Positions 31,426-38,450 of a stretch of DNA of 38,476 nt are shown piece after piece. Location of the stretch: NCBI GenBank assembly GCA_013360875.1, contig JABWAU010000023.1, positions 1 to 38,476 on the forward strand, read 5' to 3'. Position 1 is the first letter of the stretch. Every line of letters starts with the position of its first letter. Position numbers and translations under genes: made by a program. The notes below the pieces were generated by a model, which was not told the origin of the DNA, made no database searches, and saw nothing but the letters and a program-made list of their open reading frames with translations. The DNA comes from Anaerolineales bacterium (GTDB lineage: Bacteria; Chloroflexota; Anaerolineae; Anaerolineales; Villigracilaceae).

Positions 31426-33042
31426 TCACTTCAGCCAGAGATACTGATAAGGTTCCAGTTCCAACGCGACCCTTCCCTTTTCGGAAGGGTATTCCCTTTG
31501 CGTCAAAAGGTCGGCGCGAACCTTGAGCGATCGTTTCGGTTTGTAGGATACCTTCTGCACCTTGTCGCTCAGGTTTTGAAAGACCAGGATCGTTTCGCCT
31601 TCATAGGTTCTGCGATACGCGGCGACGCTGTCATTGTGACAGTCAATCCATTCGAACTCTCCCCACCCAAAAGCGTGATGTTCCTTCCTGACCGCGATCA
31701 TGTGCCGGATGGTGTTCCACATGGAAAACTTGTCCCTGCGCTGCGCCTCCACGTTGACCTTTGCGGGACCGTACACGTCGTCGTCAATCAGGGGCGAATA
31801 CAGGGATTGGAGCGGCGCTTTGGAAAACCCTGCGTTTGCCTCCGCGTTCCATTGCATCGGCGTGCGGACGCCGTTTCGATCCGGCAGCCAGATGTTATCC
31901 CCCATTCCGATCTCGTCCCCGTAATACATGATCGGCGAGCCGGGCAATGTGAACAACAGGGAATGCGCCAGTTCGATCCTGCGGCGGTCGTTATCGAGCA
32001 GGGGGGCGAGGCGGCGGCGAATACCAAGGTTGAGCCTCATGCGCGATTCCGGCGCGTATTGTTCCCACATCCACTGGCGCTCCTCCTCGGTGACCATCTC
32101 GAGGGTCAGTTCGTCGTGATTGCGAAGGAAAATGCCCCATTGATTGGTCTCGCGCAGGAAGGGCGTTCGCCCCATGATCCAGACCAGTTGGGTGCGGTCC
32201 GCCTTTCGAATGGACATGAAAATGCGCGGCATGATCGGAAAATTGAAACCCATGTGGAATTCGTCGTCGCCGTCGCCGAAATAGGGCAAAAGGTCTTCGG
32301 GCCATTGGTTGGCTTCCGCCAGCAGAACGCGCCCCGGATAATTGACGTTGATGAACTCCCGGATGGATTTCAGGTAGGCGTGCGTTTCGGGCAGGTTCTC
32401 GCAACTTGTACCTTCGCGCTCGAAGAGATACGGCACCGCGTCGGCGCGGAATCCATCCACACCCAGGTCGAGCCAGAAACTCATGATCTTCATCATCTCT
32501 TCCTGCACGAGAGGATTGTCGTAGTTCAGGTCCGGCTGCGACGAGTAGAAACGATGCCAGTAATATTGTTTCGAGGCTTCATCCCACGCCCAGTTCGATT
32601 CCTCGGTATCCGTGAAGATGATTCGCGCGTCGCGGTAGGTCAGACTGGAATCGCTCCAGACGTAGTAATTGCGGAAAATGGAGCGAGGGTTGGCGCGCGC
32701 GGCTCGGAACCAGGGATGCTGATCGGAGGTGTGATTCAGGACCAGGTCCGTGATGACCCGCAGTCCGCGTTCGTGGGCGGCGTTGATCAGGGCGATGAAA
32801 TCGTCCAGGTTTCCGTACGAGTGATGAACGTCGTAATAATTGGCGATGTCGTAGCCGTCGTCCTTCAGGGGCGATGGGTAAATGGGCAGGAGCCACAGGC
32901 AGTCCACACCCAGTTCCTTGAGGTAATCGAGTTTTTGGGTCAGCCCGCGCAGGTCGCCGTGACCGTCGCCGTTGCTGTCGTAAAAGGCGCGCACGTACAC
33001 TTCGTAGAAGACCGCGTCCTTGTACCAGAGTTGATGATCCAT
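31426..33042 (-). CDS. treS: Trehalose synthase / maltose alpha-D-glucosyltransferase (GH13)
   Basis: A 538-residue GH13 enzyme of the trehalose synthase group that interconverts maltose and trehalose. The nucleophile is Asp201 ([10 protein letters not shown]), the acid/base Glu243 ([11 protein letters not shown]) and the transition-state Asp310 ([12 protein letters not shown]). The opening [29 protein letters not shown] and the GTPMQWN-like [17 protein letters not shown] are typical of TreS. There is no signal peptide, so it acts on sugar inside the cell. It is the last gene of the sugar-uptake operon. There is no fused maltokinase domain and none next door. Confidence 0.9.
31469..31490 (+). 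terminator. Possible terminator of pyk inside the end of treS
   Basis: acccttcc and ggaagggt form an 8-base stem around cttttc, 50 bases after the pyk stop codon, followed by ATTCCCTTT. It lies within the coding end of the converging treS-type gene; the gap between the two stop codons is only 6 bases. Confidence 0.4.
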
Positions 33043-33098: not shown

Positions 33099-34847
33099 CT
33101 ATGTCGTTAACCCCGCCTGAAGCGCGAGGTCAATGAAGACCGCCGCAGTCCAGCCGAAAATGGGAGCGGCTGTCGCGGGCGATTCGCCTGTCAGGGAGTT
33201 GTAGTATTCGCGGATGCCCGGCTGGCTGGCGATCAAATTCAGGGTTTTATCGCGTAACTCAACCGCAAGTTCGCGTTCGCCGATCTTTTGCAAAGCCTCC
33301 ACAAAAAAATAATTGACATTCGCCCAGACGGGCCCGCGCCACATCCTATCGGGACTGAATGTTGGGTCGTTATATGCAACGGTCGGTAGTCCATACGCTC
33401 CCCAAAATTCGGATGGGTCTTTCAGGCGCGCCAGGAGGCGCTGCGTGATTTCACCCGGCAGTCGACCGGTCCACAATGGATAAAGGTTGAAGGGTGTGGT
33501 CACGGGGATCGGTTTTTCATCGCGCAACGCGCGGAACGATCCCATCTCTTCATCCCACAAATCTTCGATCATGCGGTTCACCAGCGACCTCGATCTTGCG
33601 CGCCATTCATCCGCCTCCGCGCCCCTGCCGAGGATCTCCGCCATCTTCGCAAGCGCATCCATTTGAACGACAAGATAGGTGTTGATATCCGGCGATTCGA
33701 CGGGCATCCCCTGATCCCAAAGCGGACTGTCGTCCAGTCCGGAGGAGTAGGGATGTGTGTATTGCGCGAGGCCATCCCTGTCGTCGTCGTTGTGTTCGAA
33801 CCACCAGGCGTTTTCGCGTTTCAACGGTTCGTATATTTCCTTCAAAAACCCGGCGTTCGGGTCGGTCTCGTGAACCTTCAATGCCGCCCACGCCAGGATG
33901 GGAGGCTTCGTCACCCGCGCGTGGATGGGATGACCGATCTCGAATACCGCGCCCTCGTCGAAGATCGCATCGGGCAGCATCCCGTCGGGGAGTTGGTTAT
34001 CCAGCATGACGCGGATTTGATCGCGCGCCAGTTCCGGGTCAACATGACGGAAGGCAATGGCGTGGAGCGCGCTGTCCCACAGCCACGCGCCCACGTAAAA
34101 TGCCTTGGTCGGCATCATGGCTTCGCGGGTCACGAATCCTTTTGGGCTGACGAGATTGTTCGCCATGACCCACCAGGCATAGGCGTATTTTTCGCGCCAG
34201 CGTTCGGGGACTCCCGGCGCGCGCTCGAACCATTTTTCCCAACGGGTCCGCGCGTTATCCTGTATGACCGTGAACGGCAACTGCGGAGGAGGGTCTTTAT
34301 CTCCGATGTAAAGCGAGATCGAGCAATCCGTTTCCGCCTGCGCGACAAATTCCACAAGATGGCTGTCTTCGCCTCCCTGCGCTCGATTGATCTTCGCCCT
34401 GCCGTTGATCGTATTCCAGACGACGCTGCGCACGTTTCGTATCGCCCCCCCGGAATCGGCGGCATGCCAATGCGTGGGACGCGTCCGAAACCGAAGCCCG
34501 GCGGTTACATGATCCGGCGCGCCGATCGCCAACGTTTCCTGATCTTGAAATACCAGGCGAAAATCGCCGATGCGGGTTTGAAGGCGAATCATCTCAGGCG
34601 ATGTGTGAATTTGGAACTCCAACGGATTCCCCGCCTCGTCAACGAAATGCAACTCGTCAATGAATGGAGGGCGGCGCAGGTAACTTTCTATGCCCGGTTC
34701 GACGCGGATAAGACGTTCCGCGAGTTTTATGAACAAGGCCGGCTTGTCGAGGTGTTTATACACCAGCAGCCGCGAGCCGCGGTCGCTGAAAGGGACGCGC
34801 GTAACGTCAATTTTGTCCTGAAGAAGATTCAACAGCGGCGTATTCAA
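33099..34847 (-). CDS. GH63/MGH1-like glycoside hydrolase
   Basis: A 582-residue enzyme with an N-terminal beta domain (to about 190) and a (alpha/alpha)6-barrel as in mannosylglycerate hydrolases and GH63/GH37 enzymes. Marker blocks are [18 protein letters not shown] with the WDS motif, [17 protein letters not shown] where family members have the general acid Asp, [14 protein letters not shown], and EYYNSLTGE with the likely base Glu. No signal peptide is present, so it hydrolyses imported sugar. Candidates are glucosyl- or mannosylglycerate or trehalose-like disaccharides. The start is a TTG at 34847; an in-frame stop three codons upstream and no better start support this. It precedes treS by 56 bases. 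Confidence 0.8.
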
Positions 34848-34938: not shown

Positions 34939-36123
34939 CTATCCTTTGACCGCGCCAGCCAACATGCCGCGTACAAAGTACCGCTGGAGGCTGAAGAAAA
35001 CGACCATGGGCAGCAGCATGGAAAGGAACGCGGAGGCGGTGAGCAATTGCCAGCCCGCGCCCAGCGACGTGACCATGTTGCTGATCTGATAAGTCATCAC
35101 GGGCGTCGTGCCTCCGAGGAATACCAGCGCCACCAGCAGGTCGTTCCATACCCACAAGAATTGGAAGATGCCGAGAGACGCAATCGCTGGCATGGCAAGA
35201 GGAATGACCATCCGGTAGAAGACCGTCCAGTGGGAAGCGCCGTCAATGTAGGCAGATTCAAACAGGTCACGCGGGAGCGAACCGAGGAAATTCCGCATAA
35301 GATATATGGCGTACGGCATTCCAAATCCGGTATGGAAAAGCCAGACCCCGAGAAATTTCCCGTTCAAGTCCAATTGCGCATAAATCCGGGAGATCGGCAC
35401 CAGGGTCATTTGAAGCGGGACGACCTGCAAGCCAACCAGGATCGCGAAGAGCGCGAAGCGTCCCTTGAAGTCGAGCCACGCGAACGCGTATCCGGCAAAC
35501 GCCGCGAACAGAATGGGCAGGATGGTCGCCGGTATGGTCACGATCAGGCTGTTGATAAAGGCGCGCCCCATGCCGCGCGGGTTGAGCAGGTCCCGGGCGT
35601 CGCAATACAAGTCCAGAGAGGCGACGCCTTCGGCGCAATCCTGCTGGTACGTCCTCGTGCCGCGATAACCGACGAGCGCGTCCACGTAGTTGCTGAGGGT
35701 AAAGCGGGGTTGCACGTCCACGCCTGATATTCGCTTGAGGTACACAACGATGTTGGCGGCGGATTGCGAATCGGGAACCGGCACGCTTCCCATGTGCGGC
35801 TGACCGTTGATTTCCCTGTTCAGAGAGTCAAGGAGTTGCAGCGAACGCGGGAAGTTGCGGATCAGTTCCGGGTTTGTCAAATCCGCGTTGGGCAGGGCGG
35901 CTCCATCGTCGCCGTGGCAGGCAGCGCAGGATTGGGCGTATTCCTGGGAGCCGCGCGGCGCTGAAAACACAGTCCACCAGCCGGAGGTGTTGATCGCCTG
36001 TGTGGGTCTCAACGACGTGACAAGCAAGCCAAATGTCGGCACGACCCAGATCGCGATCATCAGGATGATGATGAAATGAGTGGGTATCCTGTTCAATAAT
36101 CTGTTGATGCGGTCGCGGTTCAT
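34939..36123 (-). CDS. MalG-type sugar ABC permease with embedded cytochrome c domain
   Basis: A 394-residue inner-membrane permease, about 110 residues longer than the ~280 usual for MalG-like proteins. TM1 is about 14-37; the MalG core resumes at FTLSNYVDAL (141-150), followed by NSLIVTIPATIL and the cytoplasmic EAA loop FESAYIDGASHWTVFYRMVIP (288-308) that docks on the ATPase. The extra part lies in the first extracytoplasmic loop and looks like a class I cytochrome c: YAQSCAACHGDDG with haem-binding Cys66, Cys69 and His70, candidate distal ligand Met111 in QPHMGSVPVPD, and a closing helix AANIVVYLKRI. Two further cysteines (163, 174) follow. The loop faces outside, where haem c is attached. 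ATGA overlap with MalF makes an artefact unlikely. Sugar transport is the basic role; the haem domain may sense redox state or pass electrons. Confidence 0.9.
   Translation of the reverse strand: MNRDRINRLLNRIPTHFIIILMIAIWVVPTFGLLVTSLRPTQAINTSGWWTVFSAPRGSQEYAQSCAACHGDDGAALPNADLTNPELIRNFPRSLQLLDSLNREINGQPHMGSVPVPDSQSAANIVVYLKRISGVDVQPRFTLSNYVDALVGYRGTRTYQQDCAEGVASLDLYCDARDLLNPRGMGRAFINSLIVTIPATILPILFAAFAGYAFAWLDFKGRFALFAILVGLQVVPLQMTLVPISRIYAQLDLNGKFLGVWLFHTGFGMPYAIYLMRNFLGSLPRDLFESAYIDGASHWTVFYRMVIPLAMPAIASLGIFQFLWVWNDLLVALVFLGGTTPVMTYQISNMVTSLGAGWQLLTASAFLSMLLPMVVFFSLQRYFVRGMLAGAVKG
35728..35952 (-). other. Cytochrome c domain within the MalG-type permease
   Basis: Residues 58-132 of the permease. 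The order is helix with CxxCH (codons 35914-35928), a loop with Asp, Asn and Pro, a short helix (NPELIRNFPRSLQLLD), a glycine turn (INGQPHMGSVP) giving the Met ligand at 111, and a final helix ending VVYLKRI. This matches a minimal mono-haem cytochrome c of about 75 residues. There are no internal stops and base composition does not differ visibly from its surroundings. Confidence 0.85.
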
Positions 36124-37082
36124 CGGATCTCCTCCTGCGCGAGAAAACGCTTGATGTTGAAGTAAATGAACGGGATGATCGCAAGGACGAGAATGACCGC
36201 CACCGCTGTGCCGCGCCCCACGTTGAAGTTCTTGTACATTTCCGTGTACATGCGATTGGCGATGACGTCCGTGCCAAAGTTGCCGCCGGTCATCACGTAA
36301 ACGATATCGAACAATTTAAGCACGTTGATAACCATCGTCGTGATCACAACCGTGATGGTCGGCATGATGATCGGCACCATAATCCTCCAGAAGATCGTCC
36401 ATTCCTTTGCTCCGTCCACGCGCGCCGCTTCGATGATCTCGTCCGGCACGGCTTTCAGCGCGGCGGCAAGGATCGTCATACAAAAGCCCGTCCAAATCCA
36501 GACGCCCACGACTACCAGGGCAATTGTGTTCCATTGCGGCACAGTCAGGAAGGCGACGGGCTGCCCGCCCAATGAGGTAATAATGGAGTTCAACAAGCCG
36601 ATCTGCACCTGCTGGGTTCCGTAATCATAGACAAACTTCCAGATGATGCCCGCTCCGACGAAGGAGATCGCCATCGGCATGAAAATGATGGACTTTGCGA
36701 GCGCCTCATACTTGACCCGGTCTGCCAACACCGCAAAAGCCAGTCCCAGGCTGACGGTTCCACTCACCATCAGCACGATCCATTTGAGCGTGTTCCCATA
36801 CGAAGACACCCAAAACGTCCGCCAAAAAGAGGAAAATGAACGGGTGTCGAACTCGGAGGTCAATGCGTAGCGATAGTTCTCGAACACGCCCCAGCAGGGA
36901 TTCCCTTCCAGGCAGGTGGTCGCGGCTGAGGCAGTGCCGTCTCCGTTCTTGAAACTCAACGAGATTGTGTTGATCATCGGATAGACGATGAACATGGACA
37001 TGATCAACAACGCCGGCAGGAGATAAAGCCAGGGCGCGAACTTGCCCTGTTTCATGATCGTGGGAACGATACGCGCAGCCAT
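36120..37082 (-). CDS. MalF-type sugar ABC permease
   Basis: A 320-residue permease with six predicted membrane helices. The EAA loop is EIIEAARVDGAKEWTIFWRIMVP near residue 217-240. TM1 is about 18-40, and the first outside loop contains Cys57 and Cys63 (CLEGNPC), which could form a disulfide; the loop is only modestly longer than usual. It pairs with the MalG-cytochrome protein to form the pore; the ATPase is not in the window and may be a shared MsiK/MalK-like protein. AAGGAGG precedes the ATG. It overlaps MalG by 4 bases (ATGA). Confidence 0.92.
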   Translation of the reverse strand: MAARIVPTIMKQGKFAPWLYLLPALLIMSMFIVYPMINTISLSFKNGDGTASAATTCLEGNPCWGVFENYRYALTSEFDTRSFSSFWRTFWVSSYGNTLKWIVLMVSGTVSLGLAFAVLADRVKYEALAKSIIFMPMAISFVGAGIIWKFVYDYGTQQVQIGLLNSIITSLGGQPVAFLTVPQWNTIALVVVGVWIWTGFCMTILAAALKAVPDEIIEAARVDGAKEWTIFWRIMVPIIMPTITVVITTMVINVLKLFDIVYVMTGGNFGTDVIANRMYTEMYKNFNVGRGTAVAVILVLAIIPFIYFNIKRFLAQEEIR

Positions 37083-37160: not shown

Positions 37161-38450
37161 TTACTTCAAGGCTTCTGCCTGAACCGCCGCGGCTTGAGAC
37201 AGCGCCGCGTCAAGATCGCCGCCATTGAGGAAGTCCACGATCGCCTTCCACTCGGCGCTTCCAAAACCGCCGGGGATCGTATCGCCAATGTCCGGCGTAA
37301 AGCCTTGCGTCGCGTAGAAGGCTTCCGCTTTCTTGATCAGCGACGGATCGGTGTAATTGCCAGCCGCGCCCTTGTTCGGTGAAAGGTCGAAACCGGCTTT
37401 CGCCCAATTTGCTCCACCTTCGGGCGATGACAAATACGACACCAGCGCCTGAACGGCGGGCTTGTTGCTGAACGCCATCATCCAGTCCGAACCGCCCTGC
37501 AGACCTTTGGCACCCGGCACGACGAAGAAATCGTAATCCGTGCCGAATACCAAGTCGGGGAACTGTTTCTGGATTTCGCCGCCGGCAAAACCGGACTGCT
37601 TAACCATCATGGCTTCGAAGGGGTCACTGAAAGGCTTGTAGATCGCGTCCAGGAAGCCGGTCGAAAGTGTCCCTTGCGCGCCGCCGACGGTGTATTTCGG
37701 ATCCATCGCCCATTTGCCGTAGGTTTCGTAGGCTTGAACAACGCCTGCATCATTATAGGGAACCGAGCCGTTGATGATATTCATAACGTATTCGGGACCC
37801 TGTTGGACGAGAAGGATGTCCTGAATGAAGTCGGAACCCGTCCAGCCGGTGGCATCGCCGGATTCCAGCCCCATGGACCATGGGACATTTCCATCCGCTA
37901 CCATCTTCTCGACGAGCGCATCCAGTTCCTCCCACGTGGTTGGGACTGTGTAGCCAAGCGCTTCGAAGTTCGCCGGGCTGTACCAGATGATGGTCTTGAT
38001 GTCGGACTTTACGGGCAAGCCAAGCCATTTGCCGTCAATCACGCCCGGGTCAATCGCGCCGGGAATGTAAGCATCCTTATTGGCTCCAAGCGTGTCCATC
38101 GCGATCAGTTTGTCCTTGTATTGGTTCAATTGCGTCACATTCCAAAAAGCGATGTCTGGCGGAGTGCCGGCTTGGACGCGGGTGTCGAGCAGCGCCTGGT
38201 CACGCGTGGATTCGGGCTTAAGAACGATCCCGCAGGTATCAACAAGAGGCTGAAGGATCTGGTTAAGACGCGCTTCTTCCTGCCCGGACCACTGATACAA
38301 CATGCTGATCTCATCGCCAGCCTGCGCGCCCTTGCACATTTCAGCGGACGCGCCGCCGGAGGGCGCTTCCGTGCCGCCGCCGCACGCCGCCAATACCAGA
38401 GAAGCCAGGACAAGGAGGCTAACCAGAGTCAATGGGAAACGAGTTTTCAT
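37161..38450 (-). CDS. Sugar-binding lipoprotein of an ABC transporter
   Basis: A 429-residue family 1 (MalE-like) solute-binding protein. The signal peptide ends in lipobox LVLAAC with lipid-bearing Cys23, so the protein is tethered outside the membrane. A Gly/Ser-rich linker follows, then the fold: ISMLYQWSGQEEARLNQIL, GTPPDIAFWNVTQL, GLPVKSDIKTIIWYSPANFEALGY, TWEELDALVEKMVADG, and a C-terminal lobe. This opening is typical of alpha-glucoside/oligosaccharide binders. Its ATG follows AGAGGAG. It is the first gene seen of the minus-strand operon; the promoter lies beyond or at the end of the window (38451-38476 only holds the ribosome site). Enzymes downstream suggest a trehalose, maltose or glycosylglycerate-type substrate. 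Confidence 0.92.
   Translation of the reverse strand: MKTRFPLTLVSLLVLASLVLAACGGGTEAPSGGASAEMCKGAQAGDEISMLYQWSGQEEARLNQILQPLVDTCGIVLKPESTRDQALLDTRVQAGTPPDIAFWNVTQLNQYKDKLIAMDTLGANKDAYIPGAIDPGVIDGKWLGLPVKSDIKTIIWYSPANFEALGYTVPTTWEELDALVEKMVADGNVPWSMGLESGDATGWTGSDFIQDILLVQQGPEYVMNIINGSVPYNDAGVVQAYETYGKWAMDPKYTVGGAQGTLSTGFLDAIYKPFSDPFEAMMVKQSGFAGGEIQKQFPDLVFGTDYDFFVVPGAKGLQGGSDWMMAFSNKPAVQALVSYLSSPEGGANWAKAGFDLSPNKGAAGNYTDPSLIKKAEAFYATQGFTPDIGDTIPGGFGSAEWKAIVDFLNGGDLDAALSQAAAVQAEALK

Follow-up and report, generated by a model that had tools for sequence, protein, structure and literature searches.

A predicted class I cytochrome c domain inserted in the MalG-type permease of a Chloroflexota sugar importer

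What might a haem attachment site be doing in the membrane subunit of a sugar importer? The window, which is the whole stretch of 38,476 nucleotides of Anaerolineales DNA analysed here, encodes a MalG-type permease (called MalG-cyt below) whose first extracytoplasmic loop had been predicted to hold a class I cytochrome c domain. The range flagged at that time, 35728-35952, corresponds to residues 58-132 of the protein. The profile, the fold and the conservation in the family agree with one another on the presence of such a domain in that loop. The reading frame is indeed intact, as 394 codons run unbroken from the ATG at 36123 to the stop codon ending at 34939, and the start of the gene overlaps the end of the gene for the MalF-type partner by 4 bases. 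The features discussed below are collected in Table 1.

Table 1. Positions in the window of the MalG-cyt gene, its parts and its neighbours; fractions with denominator 80 refer to loci from the best 80 of 197 relatives
Feature	Position	Strand	Evidence
MalG-cyt gene (MalG-type permease, 394 aa)	34939..36123	(-)	ORF; BPD_transp_1 E 4.4e-14, Cytochrome_CBB3 E 2.5e-6
TM1, residues 15-38	36010..36081	(-)	helix in full-length AlphaFold model, pLDDT about 60; transmembrane role inferred from sequence
Class I cytochrome c domain, residues 56-129 (~56-130)	35737..35958	(-)	PF13442 match; domain model; fold matches
CAACH haem attachment motif, residues 66-70	35914..35928	(-)	CxxCH in 84/84 distinct domains
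His110, probable distal haem ligand	35794..35796	(-)	82/84 distinct domains; invariant in 26/26 full-length rows
Met111, distal ligand proposed earlier	35791..35793	(-)	Met in just 37/84
Cys163, first of loop pair after the domain	35635..35637	(-)	invariant in 26/26; pair in 83/84 distinct sequences
Cys174, second of loop pair	35602..35604	(-)	invariant in 26/26; pair in 83/84
Permease core BPD_transp_1, residues 209-387	34963..35499	(-)	Pfam; nearest solved chain SugB, E 4.7e-22
MalF-type partner permease, 320 aa	36120..37082	(-)	BPD_transp_1 E 1.4e-19; homologue in 79/80 loci
MalF partner Cys57...Cys63 pair	36894..36914	(-)	both Cys in 105/105 domain-bearing loci covered
Sugar-binding lipoprotein	37161..38450	(-)	SBP_bac_8 E 3.3e-14; homologue in 76/80 loci; lipobox read from sequence
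Trehalose synthase TreS (maltose alpha-D-glucosyltransferase)	31426..33042	(-)	TIGR02456 828 bits, cut-off 678; homologue in 61/80 loci
MGH1-like glycoside hydrolase	33099..34847	(-)	PF22422 E 2.4e-83; homologue in 16/80 loci

The permease core is complete after the insert, as had been claimed, because the BPD_transp_1 domain (PF00528, 53 bits against a cut-off of 26.4) spans residues 209-387. The nearest solved permease chains are SugB of a trehalose importer and, at E 2.5e-10, MalG. The stretch ESAYIDGAS (residues 289-297), in which E289, Y292, D294, G295 and A296 are invariant in all 26 full-length rows, is a coupling loop of the EAA type. Judged by its permease domain, its operon and this loop, MalG-cyt is the MalG subunit of a CUT1-type importer. 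Pfam finds no ATPase domain in the protein, and no partner ATPase of the MalK/MsmX type was seen among the window's open reading frames of the operon. The AlphaFold model of the full-length protein is of low confidence (pLDDT 68.9, pTM 0.49); in this model, the first long helix after that of TM1 comprises residues 185-216.

The operon is conserved and consists of a LacI regulator, the binding protein, MalF, MalG-cyt and the trehalose synthase. The neighbour counts, which contig ends limit, refer to the best 80 of 197 relatives. In this set, independent clustering finds an upstream gene, whose cluster representative is a LacI regulator, in 59 of the 80 loci, and a gene identified by its cluster representative as a TreT-type trehalose synthase in seven. 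The TreS gene of the window is the GH13 gene. The neighbouring TreS, the TreT of some loci and the similarity to SugB make trehalose or maltose the likely cargo of the importer. The flanks of the same 80 loci contain no recurrent cytochrome or oxidoreductase gene, and one open reading frame with a CxxCH motif besides the permease. The MGH1-like hydrolase next to the MalG-cyt gene also has weaker matches to GH63 and to trehalase, and its substrate may give a hint of the cargo.

The cytochrome assignment was approached through profiles and through the predicted fold. PF13442 (Cytochrome_CBB3) matches residues 56-129 in the whole protein with a modest 28.2 bits and the isolated loop with 29.4 bits, which is just over the cut-off of 27, and PF00034 stays under its cut-off of 21.3 with 16.6 and 20.4, respectively. 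PF13442 is matched at E <= 0.01 by 82 of the 84 distinct homologous domains. A search of the PDB sequences with the N-terminal 181 residues reaches CcoP at E 0.0028, and a search with the family profile has CcoP of the cbb3 oxidase as its top match (E 6.4e-7). The AlphaFold model of the domain, calculated from an 84-row alignment, has a pLDDT of 88.7, with 95-98 over model residues 11-80, and its helices are those expected of a class I cytochrome, including the predicted closing helix at model residues 72-86 (protein residues 119-133).

Comparison of this model with the PDB by Foldseek gives weak E-values, the best being 0.12 (probability 0.99) and none being at or below 0.001. Realignment of 174 chains by VIA gives a top Z of 7.2, which the tool rates as middling, with an rmsd of 3.0 over 76 residues, and 113 of the 174 chains have Z >= 5. 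Each of the 50 matches listed by Foldseek and of the 50 listed by VIA is a c-type cytochrome or contains a domain of this kind. The consistency of these lists is a stronger point for the cytochrome fold than the Z values. The top row of the VIA list is the M58H mutant of cytochrome c6. A thioredoxin-like role of the CxxC motif is disfavoured, as His is the next residue in all 84 domains and the fold matches are cytochromes.

The predicted CAACH site is found at residues 66-70, and Cys66, Cys69, His70 and Gly71 are present in every one of the 84 distinct domains. Column identity averages 49% over the domain, and the residues of the insert that are invariant in the 26 full-length rows are G58, C66, C69, H70, G71, L97 and H110. 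It is very probable that a haem is covalently attached to MalG-cyt. The identity of the distal ligand had to be revised. Met111, named for this role in the original prediction, is present in the window's protein, yet its position is occupied in the 84 domains by M (37), L (26), V (13), I (6) or T (2), whereas the adjoining residue is His in 82. Met111 is thus rejected as the distal ligand of the family. Homologues with the same loop and no conservation of CxxCH and Met had been named as a refutation of the prediction; on this test the outcome is split, as CxxCH is conserved throughout and Met111 is not.

Because His110 is conserved and Met111 is not, the distal ligand is likelier to be His110. 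The haem would then be of the bis-His kind known from PsbV, with His70 and His110 as its two ligands. In the alignment with CcoP, the Met of the GQM motif falls on Pro109 of GQPH, next to His110. The two rows that have no His at the aligned site, L097 and L112, each have another His close by in the loop. L097 carries GQMP, as CcoP does, and ligation by Met may occur in these two proteins.

Full-length homologues at 58-84% identity, all with CxxCH, are found in at least 26 of the 396 genomes of the class (the window's own included), this number being a lower bound as the best few candidates were scored per genome. These homologues rule out an assembly chimera or a frameshift. A scan of the genomes of 84,980 species with the N-terminal alignment provided the best 80 of 197 relatives, all of them Chloroflexota by title or lineage, and CxxCH is present in all 79 usable loci of this set. 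The scan patterns did not include CxxCH, and the relatives were ranked by their similarity to a query that contains the domain. The class genomes and the best 80 of 197 relatives together yield 105 domain sequences, or 84 after identical domains are dropped, which are 35-91% identical to the domain of the window. The survey of Chloroflexota MalG homologues, suggested as a check of the original prediction, thus finds CxxCH at this place in every one of the 84 distinct domains, a count that is conditional on a similar N-terminal region because the scan query contains the domain.

For the permease core, a quick tree was built from 109 rows without MalF-type sequences (L114, truncated at a contig end, was excluded; L005 is a repeat of the window). 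All 84 rows with the domain, together with five rows that lack it, fall on one side of a branch with an SH-aLRT of 99. In the best tree the five domain-less rows are nested among the 84, which suggests later losses of the domain within the clade; under an AU test, a single loss-free clade of the 84 is not rejected (p 0.084). The data fit one insertion in Chloroflexota followed by vertical descent, and a single origin holds with or without losses. Four of the five nested domain-less rows are otherwise full permeases, and transport therefore does not need the domain. Another of the five, L118 (genome G357), is a remnant truncated at about residue 174 and stands beside another domain-less permease. 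The identity past residue 174 is 86%, and this locus gives the impression of a replacement in progress.

In a sample of 400 genomes of the phylum, 10 match the whole N-terminal alignment, all belonging to the window's family, and 38 match its first part only. The 20 permeases examined among these 38, which come from elsewhere in the phylum, all have the same SGWW...NY loop as the family, with neither insert nor CxxCH. These insert-free loops clearly mark the insertion point. One MalG-type frame of 609 aa (L131, genome G201) has a non-cytochrome insert of about 300 aa in the same loop, showing that the loop after TM1 accepts extra domains. Besides many uncultured Anaerolineae, the carriers include at least two strains in culture, Pelolinea submarina and Levilinea saccharolytica. 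An identical MalG-cyt occurs twice on one contig of L. saccharolytica (NZ_LGCM01000045.1; L082 and L083), in opposite orientations about 143 kb apart.

The machinery for haem attachment is nearly always present in these organisms. In one set of domain-bearing genomes, 25 of 26 have a match to PF01578 (CcmC/CcmF/CcsA), the exception being G054 (73% complete), and in a second set 34 of 35 have one, the exception being G400; the two sets may share species. The window's own genome, for which a search for cytochrome c maturation genes had been proposed, has two PF01578 matches, both on one contig. Among the genomes of the clade whose otherwise full permease has no domain, PF01578 is found in G320, G392 and G375 and not in G390, so that there is no simple link between loss of the domain and loss of the machinery (3 of 4 domain-less genomes have it).

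Pelolinea submarina has a complete-looking ccm cluster with CcmE, CcmF, CcmC and CcmA/B by Pfam. Pelolinea is described as a strict anaerobe and fermenter, and a related fermenter is described as having no electron transport chain and a single polyhaem cytochrome (PMC5481317). MalG-cyt is the only match to PF13442 and to PF00034 in the P. submarina genome, and G397 (Pelolinea), G400, G401 and G404 have one match each to these two profiles. The idea that MalG-cyt is the sole c-type cytochrome of Pelolinea is ruled out by a frame with five CxxCH motifs (L151, about C1:1,062,800-1,063,300), a second c-type candidate. As the ccm cluster may serve this five-CxxCH protein, retention of the machinery is no proof of its use by the permease. 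The screen for other cytochromes covered CxxCHG sites and three families, so further cytochromes are possible; G401 has an open reading frame with five CxxCH motifs, and G429 has NrfA (PF02335, E 1.9e-134). At L145:13324-14460, again in a fermenter almost free of cytochromes, a five-CxxCH protein adjoins a CcmF-like gene.

Both permease subunits carry conserved pairs of cysteines. The pair in the MalG loop is also kept in the domain-less rows L034-L037, and the outgroup MalG L119 likewise has a loop cysteine pair. Cys57 and Cys63 of MalF are also present in all 4 of the clade's loci without the domain and in 0 of the 16 outgroup loci covered, and the MalF pair is thus a mark of the clade. The cysteine pairs may be plain disulphides, and a redox switch is conceivable, if speculative.

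Taken together, these observations allow a working picture of MalG-cyt to be drawn. A class I cytochrome c fold of ~85 residues is inserted after TM1, ahead of the stretch that runs on to TM2, and a haem would be bound via CxxCH and most likely held between His70 and His110. The haem would sit on the side of the importer to which the binding protein docks. If the ligation by two His residues is right, the haem should, by analogy, have a low potential and be suited to electron exchange rather than gas binding; it could then exchange an electron with an extracytoplasmic donor or acceptor. The change in charge or shape would be relayed to the permease or to the docked binding protein, and sugar uptake would thereby track the redox state outside the membrane. 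In this picture the domain, its place in the loop, the conservation of the ligands and the operon are shown, and we infer the bis-His ligation, the substrate, the electron exchange, the gating and the coupling of the haem to transport. The composite proposal, namely that a trehalose or maltose importer bears on its outer face a c-type haem, held by His70 and His110 in a domain inserted once, and that this haem serves redox control of uptake, is tentative and falls slightly short of an even chance. Points against it are that no redox partner gene recurs in the flanks of the 80 loci, that otherwise full permeases of the clade do without the domain, that the Foldseek and VIA scores are weak or middling, and that PF01578 was not found in G054 and G400.

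Redox control of uptake is the likeliest role, an anchored electron conduit comes next, and a structural or docking role is third. In a redox-gated importer, the haem and the cysteine pairs of both subunits would sense or set the redox state and thus open or close uptake, which is possible, if doubtful. The importer might instead merely anchor the cytochrome, which would exchange electrons with partner cells or with acceptors outside the cell while transport is unaffected; co-expression with uptake would then match electron disposal to sugar supply. Such a conduit would suit a bis-His haem, the small number of class I cytochromes in G397 (Pelolinea), G400, G401 and G404, and the related fermenter described as having a single polyhaem cytochrome and no electron transport chain (PMC5481317). 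It is nevertheless somewhat unlikely. A lone haem far from a quinone site needs partners and none is encoded nearby, a free or lipid-anchored cytochrome would do equally well, and the insertion in a permease loop and the fixed place in a sugar operon suggest a role in transport.

In E. coli, the large P2 loop of MalF helps to hold the binding protein. The haem of MalG-cyt could just stabilise a compact domain that helps to do so, and the acceptance of another insert by the same loop (L131) would fit, as would the cysteine pairs in both subunits, which suggest disulphide-braced loops and are kept where the domain is absent. However, such a role leaves unexplained why C, C, H and the distal His remain constant in a domain whose identity averages 49% and why the cost of maintaining the haem attachment machinery is borne, and it is unlikely. 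A distal His can be displaceable, and its replacement by O2, NO or CO might switch uptake. Gas binding is rare among native small class I folds, though, and a distal ligand kept in 82 of 84 domains suits a stable six-coordinate haem. A gas or ligand sensor is therefore quite improbable, even if many carriers are anaerobes and Pelolinea is described as a strict one (PMC5481317). The narrow margin of PF13442 (28.2 against 27 bits) and the weak Foldseek E-values could be read as signs of a relict or chance motif that binds no haem. This is barely credible given the presence of CxxCH in 84 and of His110 in 82 of 84 domains across many lineages, and of the assembly genes in nearly every genome.

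The two parts of MalG-cyt are of known kinds. The CUT1 importers MalFGK2 and LpqY-SugABC (the latter for trehalose) resemble the system of the window in the BPD_transp_1 core, the MalF-type partner, the lipoprotein binding protein and the adjoining TreS, and differ from it in that, in the window's system, MalF and MalG-cyt each carry a conserved pair of cysteines. By the alignment ranges, SugB has a stretch of about 22 residues after TM1, where MalG-cyt has a cytochrome c domain of ~100 residues. The class I domains of CcoP (PF13442) are the best profile and PDB sequence matches of the MalG-cyt domain. CcoP has a Met at GQM, whereas MalG-cyt has GQPH with the conserved His; CcoP is an oxidase subunit, whereas MalG-cyt has one cytochrome domain in the loop of a transporter. 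PsbV (cytochrome c550) has two axial His ligands (PMC9603157). It shares the class I fold (1mz4, VIA Z 5.9 against the MalG-cyt domain), and ligation by His would be the corresponding arrangement in MalG-cyt. PsbV is an extrinsic subunit of photosystem II, whereas the MalG-cyt domain is part of a transporter.

The nearest haem-linked ABC transporter found in the open-access literature is CydDC, whose biology likewise involves haem. In CydDC, an ABC membrane domain of the exporter type is joined to an ATPase of its own, and MalG-cyt, a BPD_transp_1 protein without an ATPase domain by Pfam, is not of this type. CydDC exports haem as cargo, whereas in MalG-cyt the haem would stay in place as a prosthetic group of a sugar importer, whose permease has the importer-type fold. 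No description of an ABC importer with a cytochrome c domain was found in the open-access literature, outside of which subscription journals and preprints largely lie, nor was any paper found there that names both Pfam families together. This agrees with the original statement that no such importer was known, and it is the combination of the two parts in an ABC importer that was not found described in that literature.

ABC importers are described as ATP-driven and as controlled by the substrate, the binding protein and cytoplasmic domains. With a redox cofactor in the permease, the electron state would become a further input to the importer. If true, redox gating would constitute a new class of importers under haem control, and strict fermenters that have few other cytochromes would be among its users. 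As Pelolinea submarina and Levilinea saccharolytica are cultured strains that carry MalG-cyt, the family is open to experimental testing. The presence of MalG-cyt gives a reason to ask what c-type haem does in fermenters that are thought to live without respiration.
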